DNA from: a virus
IMG/VR virus record: IMGVR_UViG_3300043548_000080
Coordinates: 1-61,523 of that record
DNA: 61,523 bases
Reading direction: 5' to 3' (one strand)
The translations under genes and the position numbers were made by a program. Positions within the stretch are counted from its first letter, which is position 1, and the number at the start of each line of letters is the position of its first letter. The notes below the pieces were generated by a model. It was not told the origin of the DNA and searched no databases. It saw nothing but the letters and a program-made list of their open reading frames with translations. Positions 1 through 19,769 of this stretch are shown piece after piece.

Positions 1-1688
1 GAGTAGAAACATTTGCTGTTAGCTGTACAGGTGGGTTGGTTACAAACCAGCCTACATTGGCACAATCTGCTCAGATGCCTGGGACAGCTAGAGAACTCAT
101 CAACTTTGAGCCTTCTGTTGAAGGTGGCTATAGACGTATTAATGGGTATACGAAGTGGTCTAACACTCCTGTTTCTGCTTTGCCTATTGTTTGGACAAGA
201 CAAGCCTATTCCATTGGAGCTACATCAATCAATGTTGGTGGGTGGTACTATCTGTCCGATTTCAATGGAACAGGAACAATAACATTCACTGTGTCTGGGT
301 CTGCTACCGTATACACGGTGTCATCTATTACTGATGATCCTTCTTCTCCTAGAGACATCCATGCTGTTATTACGTTTACACCGGCTTTGACAACCAATTT
401 AACAGCGAGACATTTTGTATTCCTTCAACAGAATTCTTTTATTCTTACAGAACTGTCGTTGTTCACGCTTAATGAGCATGTCATTACCATTAACGAATAC
501 GGCAACATTGGAAGAAATCTAAACAATGTCCTCTACCTTTCTCTTGGAGATTATCCTTCTGGTTCTTCTTTCTATTCTAGGGTGAATGGGGCAGGACAGA
601 CAGGAACAACTCTAACAATTAAGAATCTAAAACAGCGTCCTGAGGCTTATGATACTTTCTGGATAGAGACAGGATCAAGCACGTTTCCTAGTTTGTTTGC
701 TATTTCTAGCGTATCGTCCTATTCAGCAACAACTGGAACAGCTACTCTGACAATTTACCCAGCCCTTCCTTCTAGTCCAGCTAATGAAGCTCTTATTGTA
801 TGGGTTAGAAGACTAGCTAATATGTCCAGCAGTTTTACATATAGTTCTGGAAAATACTCTAAAGGGGAAACAAGCTATGTAGCCTATCCCGCAGGAGACA
901 GATATCCCCTGATTGTGTCTTCTACTTCATATGAACCTGTAACGCAGCTATACGATATTCTTCAGAGCGATGGAGAAGCTGTGATTAATGCAGCTTATTA
1001 CAAGAACCATCTGTTCTGGGCTTCTCCTTCAAATTTGTATTTCTCTGCTCCGTTTGATGAGTATGACTACACGGCTGCTTCGGGAGCAGGACAAATAACA
1101 GTTCCTGGTACTGTTGTTGGTCTAATGCCGCTTAGAGATAGTCTGATTATTTTTTGTCGATTTAACATCTTTAGACTGACAGGATCAAGTGTAGACAACT
1201 TTAGTCTTTCTGTCATTACGGAAAACACAGGATGCGTTGATGGTCTTTCCATTCAAGAAATCAATGGTGATGTGATGTTCCTGTCTGATACAGGTCTTTC
1301 TCGTCTTTCTGATTCTGATCAGTCTAGTGGACTTGGAATTAGTGTCTTGTCCAATACTATTAAGACAGAGATGAACACTCTTCTTACTGATTCATTGAAT
1401 GGTCAGAACTTCTATCCTAGTGTGTTCCTCCCCGGTAAGGGTCAATACCGTGTGTTTAAGTACAACAATTCCACTACACCAGCAAATACCATTGCAATTG
1501 CTGGTTCTCAGGTTAGTCTTAATCCTGCAGAAACCTTCTGGTCTTTGATTCAAGGTATCAAGCCCATTGTTTCTGATTTTTGGAGATATGAGAATACTGT
1601 TGTGTTTGTCAATAACAACGGGTCTGGACAAACCACTTACATCTATGAGATGGATAGCGGTAACACCTTTGATGGTACAAACATCACT
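1..1688 (+). repeat. Left end of contig self-overlap
   Basis: Bases 1-1688 align without net length change to 59836-61523. The first roughly 127 bases are identical and the stretch from about 1436 onward is nearly identical, while the middle carries frequent, mostly silent or conservative differences. Joining the ends at this overlap gives one intact gene and a genome of about 59,835 bp. Confidence 0.85.
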
Positions 1689-2018
1689 GCCACCTACAGC
1701 ACTCCTTACTATCACATGAATGATCCTAGGGTGCGTAAGGCGTTCTTGAATTTAGAAACCACTGTGGAGCCTGAAGGTGCTGTCACCATCACCGTTGACA
1801 CCCTTCTCAACTACAGCAAGTCTGATGTGATTCAGCCTCCTGCTGTCGTTGTTGGCACCACAGGAACCACATATGGAGACAACACCAGCCCTAGCTATGT
1901 CACTCCGTTGATTGGCAACGGTGAAGTTGTCTCGTTGAAGTTCACCTCCAACACCAATATTCCTCCGTATGTTATTCAATCGTTCACCGTTGAATACTCA
2001 ACCAACGACAGACGCTAA
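1..2018 (+). CDS. Tail tube protein B (T7 gp12-like), 5'-truncated copy
   Basis: This is the distal part of a tail tube gene open at the left window edge; the first base equals base 11 of the complete start seen at 59826. If the contig is closed, the full protein has about 675 residues. Its place straight after the gp11-like gene in the closed map, and its size, fit the T7 gp12 nozzle family of podoviruses, which forms the tip of the short tail. The protein is rich in Ser, Thr, Gly and beta-prone segments, as expected of a beta-propeller nozzle. It shares identical ends with the copy at 59826-61523 but differs in between. The holin gene follows 9 bases later. The family call rests on context and general sequence character, so it is likely but not proven. 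Confidence 0.8.
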   Translation, partial: VETFAVSCTGGLVTNQPTLAQSAQMPGTARELINFEPSVEGGYRRINGYTKWSNTPVSALPIVWTRQAYSIGATSINVGGWYYLSDFNGTGTITFTVSGSATVYTVSSITDDPSSPRDIHAVITFTPALTTNLTARHFVFLQQNSFILTELSLFTLNEHVITINEYGNIGRNLNNVLYLSLGDYPSGSSFYSRVNGAGQTGTTLTIKNLKQRPEAYDTFWIETGSSTFPSLFAISSVSSYSATTGTATLTIYPALPSSPANEALIVWVRRLANMSSSFTYSSGKYSKGETSYVAYPAGDRYPLIVSSTSYEPVTQLYDILQSDGEAVINAAYYKNHLFWASPSNLYFSAPFDEYDYTAASGAGQITVPGTVVGLMPLRDSLIIFCRFNIFRLTGSSVDNFSLSVITENTGCVDGLSIQEINGDVMFLSDTGLSRLSDSDQSSGLGISVLSNTIKTEMNTLLTDSLNGQNFYPSVFLPGKGQYRVFKYNNSTTPANTIAIAGSQVSLNPAETFWSLIQGIKPIVSDFWRYENTVVFVNNNGSGQTTYIYEMDSGNTFDGTNITATYSTPYYHMNDPRVRKAFLNLETTVEPEGAVTITVDTLLNYSKSDVIQPPAVVVGTTGTTYGDNTSPSYVTPLIGNGEVVSLKFTSNTNIPPYVIQSFTVEYSTNDRR

Positions 2019-2027
2019 GGGGCGCCT

Positions 2028-2225
2028 ATGTCTTCAACAGAGCAAATTACAGAGTCTGGTGCAATTGTTGCCGCAAAGATGGCTCCTCCTGCAACAGTGT
2101 CTTTAGCGACGTTGGCTGGATATCAGGTGTCAGAGATTTTGGTGTGGGCTACTCTCATCTACACGGTTCTGCTGATAGGGCAAAAGCTCTATCAAATCTA
2201 CAAAGACCTAAAACGCCGTGATTGA
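2028..2225 (+). CDS. Small single-span membrane protein, probable holin
   Basis: The 65-residue protein has one hydrophobic segment at about residues 38-53 (core VWATLIYTVLLIG) and a basic C-terminus (KDLKRRD). That layout, with the next genes encoding another membrane protein and a lysozyme, fits the short holin-type proteins found after gp12-type genes in podoviruses. Holins permeabilise the inner membrane to start lysis. It starts with ATG behind a GGGGCGCCT leader and overlaps the next gene by 8 bases. It could instead be an antiholin or another accessory lysis protein. Confidence 0.6.
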   Translation: MSSTEQITESGAIVAAKMAPPATVSLATLAGYQVSEILVWATLIYTVLLIGQKLYQIYKDLKRRD

Positions 2226-14580: not shown

Positions 14581-17234
14581 TTAAGGCATTTCACATACAC
14601 CAGCAGTGCAGGCTAGCATTTGTGCTCCTTCGACATTATCGGTGTTTTCGATGAATGTTTCCCAGGCAATGTCCTTAGGAATCTGATGTACAAGCTTGTT
14701 ATATGTATCAGCATCAATTTCCTCATAAGGAGCTTGACGGTAGGTTCCTCCATCGTGTGGGAGGAAACTAACACCAGTGATTTCATCAAAGTGTTTCCAC
14801 ACCCAAGCACCAACCTCAGGCCACTCCTCTTCCTTGACGGAGATGGTGACAGAAGGCTTGTGCTCACACCAATGGCGTTGATAGATGAGCCACAGACGTA
14901 GATGCTGAATAGCCGTCATGTCGTCACGAACAACAGCATCATCTGCACACTTCATCGGGAAGCTGAAGACAGTGGTGCTGTCAGGCTTCATTACACAAGG
15001 TTCAGCATGAAAGCCACTGTTCTTCAGAAAAGCCGTCAGAGGGTCTTTGTTGTCGCTGCGGACACGCCGAATGTAGTGGCGCGAATGCTGCGGATGAATT
15101 CCACTGGCTGTGCCTGCAAGCTGAGACGCTGTACCTTCTGGCTTGACACAAGTGACAGCAGCAGACTGAGGGATGCCAATGGCTTCAGCAAGTTCTTTGT
15201 TGGTTTGCACAGCAATGCTGCGGAACTTCTCAAGAAGCGCAGGCAAAGACTCATCGTCAGGATTGTTGAGTAGAGCATTGTCGAGAATACCCGTCATTGA
15301 AACACCCAAGAGACGCTCTTCCTCGGTGTTGGTTTGCCATACCTTACGCAGGTAAGGGAAGTGTGTCATCGTCGATTGAAAAGTTCCCAAAATTGTTGCC
15401 AGAGCAACTTTCTCAGCCAGTCGTTCAACGGTGTCGTCGCTACGAACAACAACAGTGGAAAGATTCAGATGCATTCGCTGTGGGTCGTTAATCCACAACA
15501 GGGAATGTAGAGTTGATCCACAGAGAGAAAGATTGCAATTGTTCAATTGTCGCATCGCTTTTCATCTTGTTGGCTAGTTGAGAGATAACTTGTACGTTTC
15601 CCTTTACATAGCCTTTTGTGTTGTCAATCCGGTCAAGAGAAGGAGAATAGTTATTAGGTCCGTGACCTTTTCCATAACTGTGGTTGTTAATCTTCAAAGG
15701 CAGTCCAAGAATTGGACAAGTCTCTGGGATAACAATGTCTTCTACTTCTATGTTGAATGCCATTCCAGAAGCTGCTGCTCTTTGCTTTGCTCTGTTGTGC
15801 ATTCGCCATTCCGGCGACATTGACTTAACACGTTTGCAATTGCATTCCTTGCACAAGGTCATTCTGCTAGTTTTTTCAAAGACTACACCACAAGCTGTGC
15901 ACTCTCTGTGTGTTGTGCTAACAAAATATCCTTCTCTGTTTTTTACCAACTCCATGACAAACCTCCTAGTTCTGTAATACTTCCGTTTTACAGTATTCAG
16001 ATCTGTTTGTCAACCCATCTGCATATTCCTATGCAGCTTAGACTATATCATCACCCTTTTCAGGGGCCGTGCGCTTCCATCCACTTGGATGTACTCTCTT
16101 TCGAGATAGTCGTTGCACCTTCCTAATTTCTTAGGCTTGGCTCAGGATTGCCCGGTCTGGGTTTCCCCTGAATTCACACGGTGTTCAACAAGGATTACTC
16201 CTTGAGGCTGCTATCTATTAACAGAATTGATAAGGCCGTAGAATAATTTCGGAGCAAGGGTTCGTACCCCATTCTTGCTCGGCATCTCTCCTCCCATTCT
16301 TAGCTGCCTGAATTTTGCTTGCATATCGGCTGAAAATGCCTCGTTCACCAGAATGGCTGTCATAGATGGAACACCATTCACGCATGAACTTACCAACATC
16401 AGGACGGCTATCATACACAGCGCTGTTGTTTGCCAACGCCCGTTGACCATTCCCGTCCCACCAATTTCCTGCCTTGGCATGAGCCATACGATCATCACCA
16501 AGATTGGACAGAGAAATCATGGCGCTGCGACGAACACCACCAACAACCACCACTTCACCAATCTTGCACATGATGTCATGGCATTCCAGAGAAGTGAGTT
16601 TTCGACCAGTGGCACCCTTGAACTTCTGTGTCACATACTTGAACAGTTCTTCCAGAGGACCAGGACCGGAGGCACGCCCACCAAAGGTCTTCAAACGGGC
16701 TCCAGCAGGACGAACACCAGAGACATCCCACTTAGGCACTTCACCAGCGTACAGAAGCGCTACAAGCTGCCGTAGAGCCTTTGCCCAGCCTTCCTTGCTG
16801 TCCTTGACCACAATGGTGGTGGCGCTGTCAAACAGCCGCTCAGGTACATCAGGAAGCTTGTTGACGTATTGCTGCTCAACACTGAAGCCAACACCAGTGC
16901 CGCACAGCAAGATGTACATGGCTTCATCGAAAGCCTTGGGATCATCAATGGGCAGATAGGAGCAGTTGTAGCCTGCCACATTCTGACGCTCCAATGCCTC
17001 ACCAGCGGTCATGATGGAGCGCATGGAAGGCAACACTTCCCTGTCCGTCACAGCCTTCTGAAGCGCTGAACGAAGTTCAGGATTGAGATTGTAATTGTGC
17101 TTCTCTTTCAGGTGCTTTTGCATGAAATCGAAATAGCGATTGACCGTCTCAGGCCAATGCTCGCGTCGTCCTTCGTTGTCCAAGAAGCGGGCATACCGGC
17201 TCTTGGCAATGTATGTTTCATAAGGGGTCATCAT
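14581..17234 (-). CDS. nrdJ: Class II (B12-dependent) ribonucleotide reductase, split by a group I intron
   Basis: The coding sequence is complement join of 16221-17234 and 14581-15465, giving 632 residues. It reduces ribonucleotides to deoxyribonucleotides with adenosylcobalamin as radical source. Visible features: substrate-loop cysteine region near GYNCSY, CGTGVGFSVE, the NPCSEI motif with the thiyl-radical cysteine (about 325-330), and the C-terminal redox pair CTAGVC (Cys624, Cys629), all as in the monomeric Lactobacillus-type enzyme. Exon 1 ends in RPYQFC and exon 2 begins NLSTVVV, in frame after removal of 755 bases. I take the start at ATG 17234 because GGAAGAA precedes it. The gene lies between two terminator hairpins and may form its own transcription unit. 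Confidence 0.9.
15466..16220 (-). ncRNA. Group I self-splicing intron in nrdJ
   Basis: The 755-base insert separates two in-frame halves of nrdJ. Exon 1 ends in U and the intron ends in G, as in group I introns. A P1 helix can form between exon CTGT and intron GCAG, with the U-G pair at the cut. The core shows P (AGGGGAAACCC, near 16160-16170), Q (AATCCTGAGCCAAGCC), R (GCAACGACTATCTC, near 16105-16118) and S (GATATAGTCTAA, near 16040-16050), with P7 formed by GACTAT and ATAGTC. The 3' part holds an HNH endonuclease gene. Confidence 0.88.
15488..15955 (-). CDS. Intron-encoded HNH homing endonuclease
   Basis: The 155-residue protein has two N-terminal CxxC pairs (Cys19/22 and Cys35/38), a typical zinc knuckle, then CPILGLPL at 80 and the block SPSLDRIDNTKGYVKGNVQV at about 104-123, the usual HNH core of phage homing enzymes. 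It would cut intronless nrdJ alleles and spread the intron. It starts at an ATG behind a perfect AGGAGG and ends 22 bases before the 3' splice site. Confidence 0.92.
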   Translation of the reverse strand: MELVKNREGYFVSTTHRECTACGVVFEKTSRMTLCKECNCKRVKSMSPEWRMHNRAKQRAAASGMAFNIEVEDIVIPETCPILGLPLKINNHSYGKGHGPNNYSPSLDRIDNTKGYVKGNVQVISQLANKMKSDATIEQLQSFSLWINSTFPVVD

Positions 17235-17254
17235 TTCTTCCTTTACAGAAAACA

Positions 17255-17276
17255 AAGGCAGCATTGAAGCTGCCTT
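17255..17276. terminator. Terminator hairpin between methyltransferase and nrdJ
   Basis: An 8-bp stem AAGGCAGC/GCTGCCTT with a 6-base loop is followed on the minus strand by TTTGTTTTC. It would end leftward transcripts before the nrdJ start. Confidence 0.7.
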
Positions 17277-17296: not shown

Positions 17297-18214
17297 TCAC
17301 AGATTCATATAGGCTTCTATGAATGTTTGCGCGACTTGCGGGACGATGGCATTACCGTAGGCGCGCAATCGTCCCACTTTGGCGGGAGCCCCATGAGCCA
17401 GCGGGAATGTGCCGGGTTCAACTGGCCTCCACTTTCCATCCCGGCAGAAGAGCCAGTCAGCATCTCGCCAGTGGTCGTTAGTCGGGCCGGGATTGGTTTT
17501 GCGTAGTCCACCAACGCTTCGGTCAGGTAACCTGTCTCCCGTCCGGTAGCTGCTCGACTCGGTCTCATATGCTTGCGATCGACTGTGTCCATCGTATTGG
17601 GCGCAGGCCAGCTTGATAGTTTCGCCGCTCCAGGTAACTTCAACGAAATCTTGTTTGTTCCGTCCAGATTCTTGCCGCTGTAGCAGTGTGTACTCCCGTG
17701 TTGATCGTTTGTGATCGCAGTGGGCCACCCAGTAAAGTCGTTGTCTGATATGCGGGGCACCGACGCCCGCAGCGCACAGATCTGCCGCTGCGCTGGAGTA
17801 GTTCGCTCCTTCCAAGTCAGCTTGTACAGAGTCGAGCCAAGATAAGCCGTCTTTGCTCGCAACCTGTTCGCCAAAGACAACTGAAGGCTTGCAGGCTGCA
17901 ATGAGTCTGAACATTTCAGGCCAGAGATGTCGTTCGTCATCAAATCCTTTTCCTTTTCCTGCACTGCTAAACGGTTGACAAGGACAGCTCCCTGTCCATA
18001 CTTCTCTGTCATCAGACCAACCTGCTTGTCGTAAAGCATAACTCCAAACTCCAATTCCACCGAAGAAATGACATTGCTTGTAGCCTTTCAAGTCTTCTGG
18101 TTGAACATCAACAATTGATCGTGTGTCTACATCTCCTTTTGCAATGTGTCCTGCCTCAATTAGATTACGCAGCCATTGAGCAGCGTAGGCATCAATCTCG
18201 TTGTAGTAAACCAT
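17297..18214 (-). CDS. dcm: DNA C5-cytosine methyltransferase
   Basis: The 305-residue enzyme has motif [10 protein letters not shown] (about 50-58), motif [11 protein letters not shown] with catalytic Cys79, a motif VI variant FGEQVAS (114-120), motif [12 protein letters not shown], and motif [14 protein letters not shown] near the end. It would transfer a methyl group from S-adenosylmethionine to cytosine; the target site is not known, and no paired restriction enzyme is visible. It probably protects the phage DNA from host restriction. A second long reading frame lies inside this gene at 17317-18060. Confidence 0.92.
17317..18060 (-). CDS. Overprinted ORF inside the methyltransferase gene
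   Basis: A 247-codon frame, shifted by one base from the methyltransferase, stays open through most of it. The predicted protein includes [55 protein letters not shown] and [21 protein letters not shown] recall the same strings, especially the last two, in many phage and prophage proteins overlapping dcm-type genes, so this is unlikely to be chance. The first codon is GTG; an ATG follows seven codons later. The function is unknown. It could be a real second product, or a conserved shadow forced by methyltransferase constraints. Confidence 0.5.
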
Positions 18215-18296: not shown

Positions 18297-18671
18297 TTAG
18301 CGATTGTCACCACTTCCCTGAATCACGTTTCGTTGCTTCCTATCCTCCAGCTTGTTGATGTTCATTTGAGCGATGTCTTCCAACTTCCAGTAGTAGTTGC
18401 TGGCAATACCTGCAACAAACCACAGGATATCACCTAGTTCCTTCTTCAATGCTTCCTGCCTATTCTCCCATGAGAACATGTCAACAGACGTTGGATTGTC
18501 TCTGACATATTTAGCCTGCACACCACAGAGTTCACCTACCTCAGCAGCAATGCCTGGAAAGAGATAGGAAGATTCTTTAGCTGTGGGCAGTGCATAGCTC
18601 CATGCTTTTTCTTGATAGTCATTCAACGTCTTGATACCAACTCCTGCAGTAGAAGTAGTTTCCGTATTCAT
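18297..18671 (-). CDS. MazG-like nucleotide pyrophosphohydrolase
   Basis: The 124-residue protein (start at ATG 18671, after AGAAAGG) has the MazG helical metal site: EVGELCG, then KKELGDILWFVAGIA, with the final IAQMNINKLEDRKQRNVIQGSGDNR-type tail. MazG-family enzymes hydrolyse (d)NTPs to monophosphates and pyrophosphate; phage copies may shape nucleotide pools or lower ppGpp, though that is debated. The longer upstream frame lacks a better start. The ATG lies inside the end of the small gene at 18619. Confidence 0.82.
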   Translation of the reverse strand: MNTETTSTAGVGIKTLNDYQEKAWSYALPTAKESSYLFPGIAAEVGELCGVQAKYVRDNPTSVDMFSWENRQEALKKELGDILWFVAGIASNYYWKLEDIAQMNINKLEDRKQRNVIQGSGDNR

Positions 18672-18798
18672 CGATGAGCCTTTCTGGATATCCATTGTCA
18701 ATGAGCCATTGTCTGAAATCAACAACGGTCTCTGGGATTGGTTTAGGGAAGCCATATTTCCATCCTTGTGGTGGATCAACAAACTTGATTCGTACCAT
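18619..18798 (-). CDS. Small hypothetical protein between thyX and mazG
   Basis: The 59-residue protein begins MVRIKFVDPPQGWKYGFP and contains an aromatic-rich C-terminus (YGNYFYCRSWYQDVE). It overlaps the end of thyX by 23 bases and the start of mazG by 53 bases. I do not recognise a family. The coherent start at the end of thyX and the sensible composition support it as a real gene. Confidence 0.55.
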   Translation of the reverse strand: MVRIKFVDPPQGWKYGFPKPIPETVVDFRQWLIDNGYPERLIDEYGNYFYCRSWYQDVE

Positions 18799-19435
18799 AG
18801 TAGCTCCCGTCAGGCATTTCAAATAAGGAAGGAAGCAATTCAGAAACAATCTTCTTACATTGCTGAGCCACTTCCCTATGTTCCTTTTGAGTAGCGTCGT
18901 CACAGCGTACATCAATGTAGTGCAGCCAGCTACGCACAGTACCATTGACATACATTCGGGACATCGTCAACCCTTCAGGCAACACCTTCCTAGCCACCTC
19001 TTTTGCAATGCCCATGTGTAGGGCATGTTCATACACATTCTTAGCCTGCTTCCAGGTCTTCTGTTGCTGCTCTTCCCACCAACGCTGCACTTCCCTGTCT
19101 TCAGTGGGTAGGCTGTTCTGCCTATTTTTGTTGTCTTGCATCCTAGCCTCGCTGATGTCATGGTCTCCCACAACAGCATAACGCTGGCTAAATTCTTGGA
19201 AGCTAAAGCTTCGGTGCCGCAGGATTTGTCGAGCAATGTCCCGAGTTGTTTCAATCTCGATGCAGACATTGCCCATTTCAAACACAGACCAATGCTTGTG
19301 CTTCATGCAATAGCGAAGAAGCTTTGGTGCTGTCCCGTCATTGTGCTGGTTAGCAGGATTGCTGACACGGGCACAATAGGCAATGACGCTTTCAAGATTC
19401 GGTGTTGCCCAGATGAGTGTAGCTTTTGACGGCAT
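18776..19435 (-). CDS. thyX: Flavin-dependent thymidylate synthase ThyX
   Basis: The 219-residue enzyme carries the ThyX signature RHR followed by seven residues and Ser (RHRSFSFQEFS, about residues 73-83), then QRY. ThyX converts dUMP to dTMP with methylenetetrahydrofolate and FAD. The C-terminal half has the RKVLPEGLTMSRMYVNGTVRSW-type segment that binds substrate. The start is set at ATG 19435 (MPSKATL) behind CAGGAACAGAAAG. It overlaps both neighbours, as expected in this compact leftward operon, and works with nrdJ and mazG in dNTP supply. Confidence 0.93.
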   Translation of the reverse strand: MPSKATLIWATPNLESVIAYCARVSNPANQHNDGTAPKLLRYCMKHKHWSVFEMGNVCIEIETTRDIARQILRHRSFSFQEFSQRYAVVGDHDISEARMQDNKNRQNSLPTEDREVQRWWEEQQQKTWKQAKNVYEHALHMGIAKEVARKVLPEGLTMSRMYVNGTVRSWLHYIDVRCDDATQKEHREVAQQCKKIVSELLPSLFEMPDGSYYGTNQVC

Positions 19436-19769
19436 CTTTCTGTTCCTGAAGATAGTTGTTGATGGCTGAGTAGATGGAAGCTTCAAAAACTTTCTGAGCT
19501 GTTTCGTTGTCCATGTGGACTACCAGAGTTTCTTCGTCCTTACCATCAGCAACATCTTGGAAGAACTTCTCAGCTTCTGATGGCACCATATAGTATTTCA
19601 GCACTGCCTCAATGCCTATACGGGTGTTGAAGGTGGCGTTCTGGTCTTCAGGATGTTTATCATCAAAGCTTGGGCTTTGTTCTTCTTGCCACAGGTTTTT
19701 GTACTCCTTCTGCAGAAACGACATAATGAAGATTTCTGCTGTTTCCTCGTCCAGTTCTAGCGTGTACAT
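19392..19769 (-). CDS. Acidic hypothetical protein
   Basis: The 125-residue product, starting MYTLELDEETAEIF behind AAAGGAACGAA, is acidic and helical, with MSFLQKEYKNLWQ near the N-terminus and a C-terminal segment FEASIYSAINNYLQEQKDAV. I recall similar short proteins in phages but no function. It overlaps the HNH gene upstream by 107 bases and thyX downstream by 44 bases; the upstream overlap is unusually long, so the end of the HNH gene or this start may be revised. Confidence 0.6.
   Translation of the reverse strand: MYTLELDEETAEIFIMSFLQKEYKNLWQEEQSPSFDDKHPEDQNATFNTRIGIEAVLKYYMVPSEAEKFFQDVADGKDEETLVVHMDNETAQKVFEASIYSAINNYLQEQKDAVKSYTHLGNTES

Follow-up and report, generated by a model that had tools for sequence, protein, structure and literature searches.

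The minus strand of the virus record IMGVR_UViG_3300043548_000080 (61,523 nucleotides, analysed in full and referred to here as the window) carries at positions 17297..18214 an open reading frame (ORF) of 305 amino acids for a C5-cytosine methyltransferase. A second long frame lies inside this gene, displaced by one base. We call the methyltransferase alpha and the product of the overprinted frame beta. Comparison with related loci makes it quite probable that this is a dual-coding gene for a two-chain C5-cytosine methyltransferase, in which alpha is the catalytic subunit and beta provides target recognition and motif IX, is translated independently and assembles with alpha.

The methyltransferase frame and its missing motif

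Alpha matched the Pfam family DNA_methylase (E = 1.4e-16) and, in the PHROGs database, phrog_363 (E = 3.1e-92), and its predicted model aligned to M.HhaI with a Z score of 12.6 (VIA-align). Motifs I, IV, VI, VIII and X were all recognisable in its frame. They include the catalytic core expected of a C5-cytosine DNA methyltransferase: PCQ in motif IV, motif VI, RxR in motif VIII and GN in motif X (YGNAIV, 17342..17359, minus strand). The motif VI position reads EQV, the usual form being ENV. Motif IX, which a monomeric enzyme would carry, was not recognisable in the alpha frame, where the best windows of a position-specific scoring matrix (PSSM) scored at background level; alpha differs in this from the ordinary C5-methyltransferases with pre-X segments that we inspected, which show the expected motif IX. 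Residues 182-254 of alpha (17453..17671, minus strand) occupy the expected place of the recognition domain. This segment is length-variable, is predicted by AlphaFold2 (AF2) to be disordered (predicted local distance difference test, pLDDT, <50) and, read in frame +1, codes for the beta repeats. No match to a second C5-methyltransferase was found elsewhere in the window.

The order of the motifs in alpha looks permuted, the motif II/III segment seeming to lie ahead of motif I (residues 1-65 of the minus-strand gene at 17297-18214). In phmmer, alpha residues 35-65 fell on M.HhaI 2-32 (motif I) and residues 69-164 on 71-170, while the alpha model aligned from its residue 1 onward to M.HhaI 35 onward.

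The overprinted frame and its start

The +1 frame of alpha is open for 256 codons (stop to stop, 17317..18087). Within it lies the ORF of 247 codons with a GTG start (17317..18060, minus strand) from which this work set out; it is present exactly as an earlier, sequence-only reading had described it. The protein strings which that reading ascribed to phages are real phage sequence: a tblastn search with the ORF matched 204 phage records, 139 of them covering at least 80% of it. The overprinted frame also matched two PHROGs families, phrog_1008 (E = 4e-28) and phrog_31772 (E = 8e-32).

The GTG start is another matter. Alpha evolves as a normal gene through codon 80, and the first 40 codons of the long ORF, which mostly overlap this region, are probably untranslated; a start at GTG 18060 is thus disfavoured. 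Beta most likely begins at ATG 17940, or possibly at TTG 17943, because synonymous constraint sets in near alpha codon 81 and a conserved start region lies at alpha codons 91-92. In most relatives these two codons read TTG followed by ATG or CTG and are preceded by a purine-rich stretch, and Shine-Dalgarno-like words (AAGGA/AGGAG/GGAGG) precede the beta start in 72 of 175 relatives, where 34 were expected. The start region in the window reads AAAAGGAAAAGGATTTGATG, and the purine-rich AAAAGGAAAAGGA (17945..17957, minus strand), which lies within the alpha coding sequence, is by its position and the enrichment of such words a candidate Shine-Dalgarno sequence. Beta would then be a protein of about 207 amino acids (17317..17940, minus strand; stop codon TAG at 17317-17319).

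Several features stand out along beta. Residues 35-60 (17761..17838, minus strand) are highly conserved and are predicted to form a beta-hairpin (pLDDT 85-90). Two repeat units of the W-P-T-P type follow: GWPTA (17716..17730, minus strand) and SWPAP (17599..17613, minus strand). The C-terminal motif (17374..17421, minus strand) shows the strongest dual-frame constraint of the locus and aligns with canonical motif IX.

Both frames are open and constrained across relatives

When the codons of the window gene were shuffled synonymously, a procedure that ignores the neighbour preferences of codons, 4.7 stops were expected in the +1 frame over codons 91-297 and none was seen (P = 0.0002); a +1 run as long as the one in the window gene arose in 0.06% of shuffles. 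Of 175 non-redundant relatives, most of them from contigs retrieved by alpha or beta queries, 174 kept the +1 frame open through codons 91-285, where chance would leave it open in 9; the set contained 2 stops, and 494 were expected. Eighty loci picked by the methyltransferase protein alone gave the same picture: their +1 frames had no stops between roughly codon 20-40 and a point close to the end, and their +2 frames held 9-27 stops. In a control set of 28 ordinary C5-methyltransferases, the +1 frame contained 307 stops, with 309 expected.

A distant second subfamily, in which alpha starts MNELALFAG, behaves in the same way. Its +1 frame was open in 63 of 63 genes (0.25 expected), with no stops where 325 were expected, and spans nearly the whole alpha gene. 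Most of these genes open with ATGAATGAG or a near variant, which places an ATG for beta 4 nucleotides after that of alpha. The beta profile of one subfamily is homologous to that of the other (hhalign probability 98.5%, E = 1.9e-15, 155 columns), and in both subfamilies the frames are open across homologues beyond chance.

In the frame +1 geometry the third base of an alpha codon occupies position two of a beta codon, and the silent base of beta is the first base of the next alpha codon. Third- versus first-position change was counted over 258 gene pairs; since these pairs share genes, 65 disjoint pairs provide the fair test. The ratio of third- to first-position change in alpha was about 4.4 over codons 1-80, fell to 1.3-1.6 from codon 81, and was near or below 1 over codons 161-260, where the variable middle aligns poorly and the figures are less certain; it then dropped to 0.27 at codons 261-280 and returned to about 2.1 after codon 281. 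Among the disjoint pairs, third-position change fell below first-position change at codons 261-280 in 52 and exceeded it in 5 (sign test, p = 6e-11), whereas over codons 1-80 it was the higher in 64 and the lower in none. The window gene itself gave ratios of 2.94 over codons 1-80 and 0.22 at codons 261-280. The inversion of the ratio shows purifying selection on the hidden frame at codons 261-280. Moreover, alpha fourfold-site divergence, about 0.3 over most of codons 1-80, is 0.020 at codons 271-280, and the corresponding value for beta there is 0.255. It is therefore the +1-frame protein that is conserved, and not the DNA as such. Purifying selection thus acts in both frames.

These results bear on two ways in which the open frame could mislead. 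GC-rich genomes often contain long shadow ORFs, and in the genes of highest GC content, taken singly, the open frame is not significant, so that it might be a side effect of the codon usage of the methyltransferase or of high GC content. The codon shuffles, the position-specific rates and the chance stop level of the ordinary enzymes rule this out within the limits of those tests; the +1 frame is open in family members of 40-50% GC too, and we regard the explanation as extremely improbable. Alternatively, selection might act on DNA or RNA, through a structure or a binding site, with no second protein involved: the last 140-180 bp of the gene are 79-90% identical between distant phages. This is ruled out by the fourfold-site contrast, the synonymous sites of beta varying freely just where those of alpha are frozen, and stops are avoided across some 200 codons despite the length variation of the region; we give it practically no chance. 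The suggestion in the sequence-only reading that a real second protein is conserved here is supported by the open frame and the position-specific constraint. Neither of the observations that it had named as fatal to the idea, a frame broken by stops in homologues or a lack of synonymous-site constraint, was made.

Split and single-frame relatives indicate what beta is

Relatives with other gene layouts point to the function of beta. Alpha is shorter in Vash, Skipitt, RedFox, Camerico and phiBT1, ending after motif VIII, and LPTP repeats together with motifs IX and X are found in a +1-frame beta homologue. The counterparts of the window's C-terminal beta motif in these actinophages lie in the same frame as motif X and 23-33 residues ahead of it; the distance in ordinary enzymes is 20-30. 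The Vash beta matches the beta profile of the second subfamily with E = 1e-24. In phiBT1 (locus L402) the beta ORF (1105-2034, plus strand) is unannotated beside gp9.1, the alpha gene, whose record carries the note 'DNA methylase may be inactive'. A single ORF holds motifs I-VIII, the repeats, motif IX and motif X in Philonius, Filuzino and Deb65; the one-ORF form occurs in some mycobacteriophages. Because these split and single-ORF relatives hold a homologous C-terminal half with motifs IX and X, beta is most likely the recognition and motif IX subunit of a two-chain C5-methyltransferase, as the sequence-only reading had hinted in naming a partner of the enzyme, or a regulator, as possibilities. 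This comparative evidence is a stronger argument for the identity of beta than direct similarity to motif IX. When both beta profiles were compared with ordinary C5-methyltransferases the best match fell exactly at motif IX, and one canonical enzyme (locus L388) was matched in frame at its recognition region (E = 0.078).

Several observations weigh against a two-chain enzyme of this kind. The match of the beta profiles to motif IX is weak taken alone (E about 0.2), and in the PSSM test for motif IX in the window subfamily about 12% of background proteins scored equally well. The window lineage has motif X in the alpha frame, which the actinophages do not. Beta matched no Pfam family and no solved structure (best PDB E = 0.44), and its predicted model is of low confidence (predicted template modelling score 0.31), too weak for the lack of a structural match to point to a new fold. 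Expression of beta, its complex with alpha and the methylation activity are predictions only.

The lack of a family or structure match and the weak motif IX similarity would also suit a beta that is real but stands outside the methyltransferase, as a regulator, an anti-restriction protein or some other accessory. We think this unlikely, given that beta homologues hold motif IX and then motif X at canonical spacing, that some share one frame with motifs I-VIII, and that all 247 loci, found with alpha or beta queries, carry both alpha and beta, with no stand-alone beta homologue lacking the alpha frame among them. A different possibility is that the +1 frame is reached from alpha by programmed ribosomal frameshifting, giving a fused protein of the alpha N-terminus and the beta C-terminus in place of a separate chain. 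Beta lies wholly within alpha and some phages do encode both halves as one polypeptide, but the +1 constraint starts at a conserved start region with an enriched Shine-Dalgarno-like sequence, and in the second subfamily beta mostly has its own ATG. Frameshifting is, in our judgement, highly unlikely.

A probable two-chain enzyme encoded in one gene

The arrangement that we favour, two chains from one gene, would work as follows. Alpha would supply the catalytic core, with motifs I-VIII, the disordered linker and motif X. Beta, initiated at a separate start codon within alpha, would supply the W-P-T-P recognition region and motif IX. The two would be translated independently from one mRNA and beta would bind alpha to give one assembled enzyme, which would methylate the phage DNA, with beta determining the target sequence, and so probably evade host restriction. 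The coupling of the frames would keep alpha and beta together in inheritance. It is conceivable, though we hold the idea tentatively, that beta is a modular recognition subunit. The number and spacing of its W-P-T-P repeats would vary, the alpha segment that they overlap would serve as a disordered linker that tolerates this, and phages could alter methylation specificity by changes in one frame, with the catalytic core left as it is. Were that so, it would represent a general and previously unrecognised design of phage C5-methyltransferases.

A two-chain C5-methyltransferase is a known kind of enzyme. M.EcoHK31I (YGGCCR) is the biochemical precedent, likened here by motif layout only: alpha, like its large chain, holds motifs I-VIII and X, and motif IX is assigned to a second polypeptide. 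In the window the gene of the large subunit also encodes this second polypeptide, in an overlapping frame; the small subunit of M.EcoHK31I is likewise said to be encoded in an alternative frame within its large-subunit gene (reportedly by Lee, Kam and Shaw in 1995). M.EcoHK31I differs in being part of a restriction-modification system. The larger subunit of M.EcoHK31I contains motifs I-VIII and X and the smaller one motif IX; its predicted recognition domain has been placed in the larger subunit (PMC3404938), whereas we assign recognition to beta, a discrepancy to be set beside the adverse points above. M.AquI (CYCGRG) is also a split C5-methyltransferase with motif IX on the small subunit (PMC3404938), the window locus differing from it in having motif X on alpha. 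The paired 'DNA methylase' genes of actinobacteriophages (Skipitt gp78/gp77, Vash gp32/gp33, RedFox gp42/gp43) are homologues of alpha and beta with beta in frame +1; there, unlike in the window, the early stop of alpha leaves a partial overlap and motif X is on beta.

Second ORFs in another frame of phage methylase genes have been described as mobile insertions of the ShiLan-domain type encoding HNH endonucleases (PMC11855218). Such an identity for beta was rejected: beta has no HNH match, and all the family members sampled have a beta. At one locus, L083, an HNH-like ORF in another frame (1307-1639, plus strand) sits between motif IX and motif X, with motif X ending up in the beta frame; it resembles those out-of-frame insertions.

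Distribution and prior notice

The overlapping-frame arrangement is present in hundreds of phages and prophages, in which usually just one ORF of the pair is annotated. Profile searches gave 3 matches in 395 genomes of the phylum of a Bacteroidetes metagenome-assembled genome and 5 in 150 genomes of the family of a Verrucomicrobia host, and the alpha frame overlaps in those inspected. At locus L088 (1209-1986, plus strand), close to L086, the alpha frame is apparently frameshifted with the beta motif IX region kept; a sequencing error is possible. PHROGs places the two frames in separate families, phrog_363 for alpha and phrog_1008 for the overprinted frame, both called 'DNA methyltransferase', and the entries inspected give no sign that one gene encodes both in different frames.

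We found no description of a nested alpha/beta overlap in phages in the open-access literature, and its spread through many enzymes of phages and prophages appears to be unreported. There is partial prior notice in two annotations, which agree with the remark in the sequence-only reading that overlapping ORFs had been annotated: K1ind2 has ORF29 ('C-specific methylase') and ORF28 ('Mte8-like'), and DevRi has both ORFs with the annotator's remark 'Not called by any program'. For hundreds of phage and prophage methyltransferases a single gene is annotated, in a frame that has neither motif IX nor a recognisable recognition domain. If beta is the missing half, cloning and assays of these enzymes must include both chains, the hidden frame is where their specificity should be sought, and the locus offers a well-sampled natural case of one sequence serving two proteins.

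Upstream of alpha in the window lie a MazG-type nucleotide pyrophosphohydrolase-like gene (18297-18782, minus strand) and a ThyX-like thymidylate synthase gene (18776-19486, minus strand), both identified by eye only. A group I intron at 16019-16230 on the minus strand (Rfam RF00028, 96 bits, E = 2.3e-25) goes with an HNH endonuclease ORF at 15488-15955 on the same strand, and together they apparently split a ribonucleotide reductase gene, named by eye, into minus-strand ORFs at 16218-17264 and 14581-15555.
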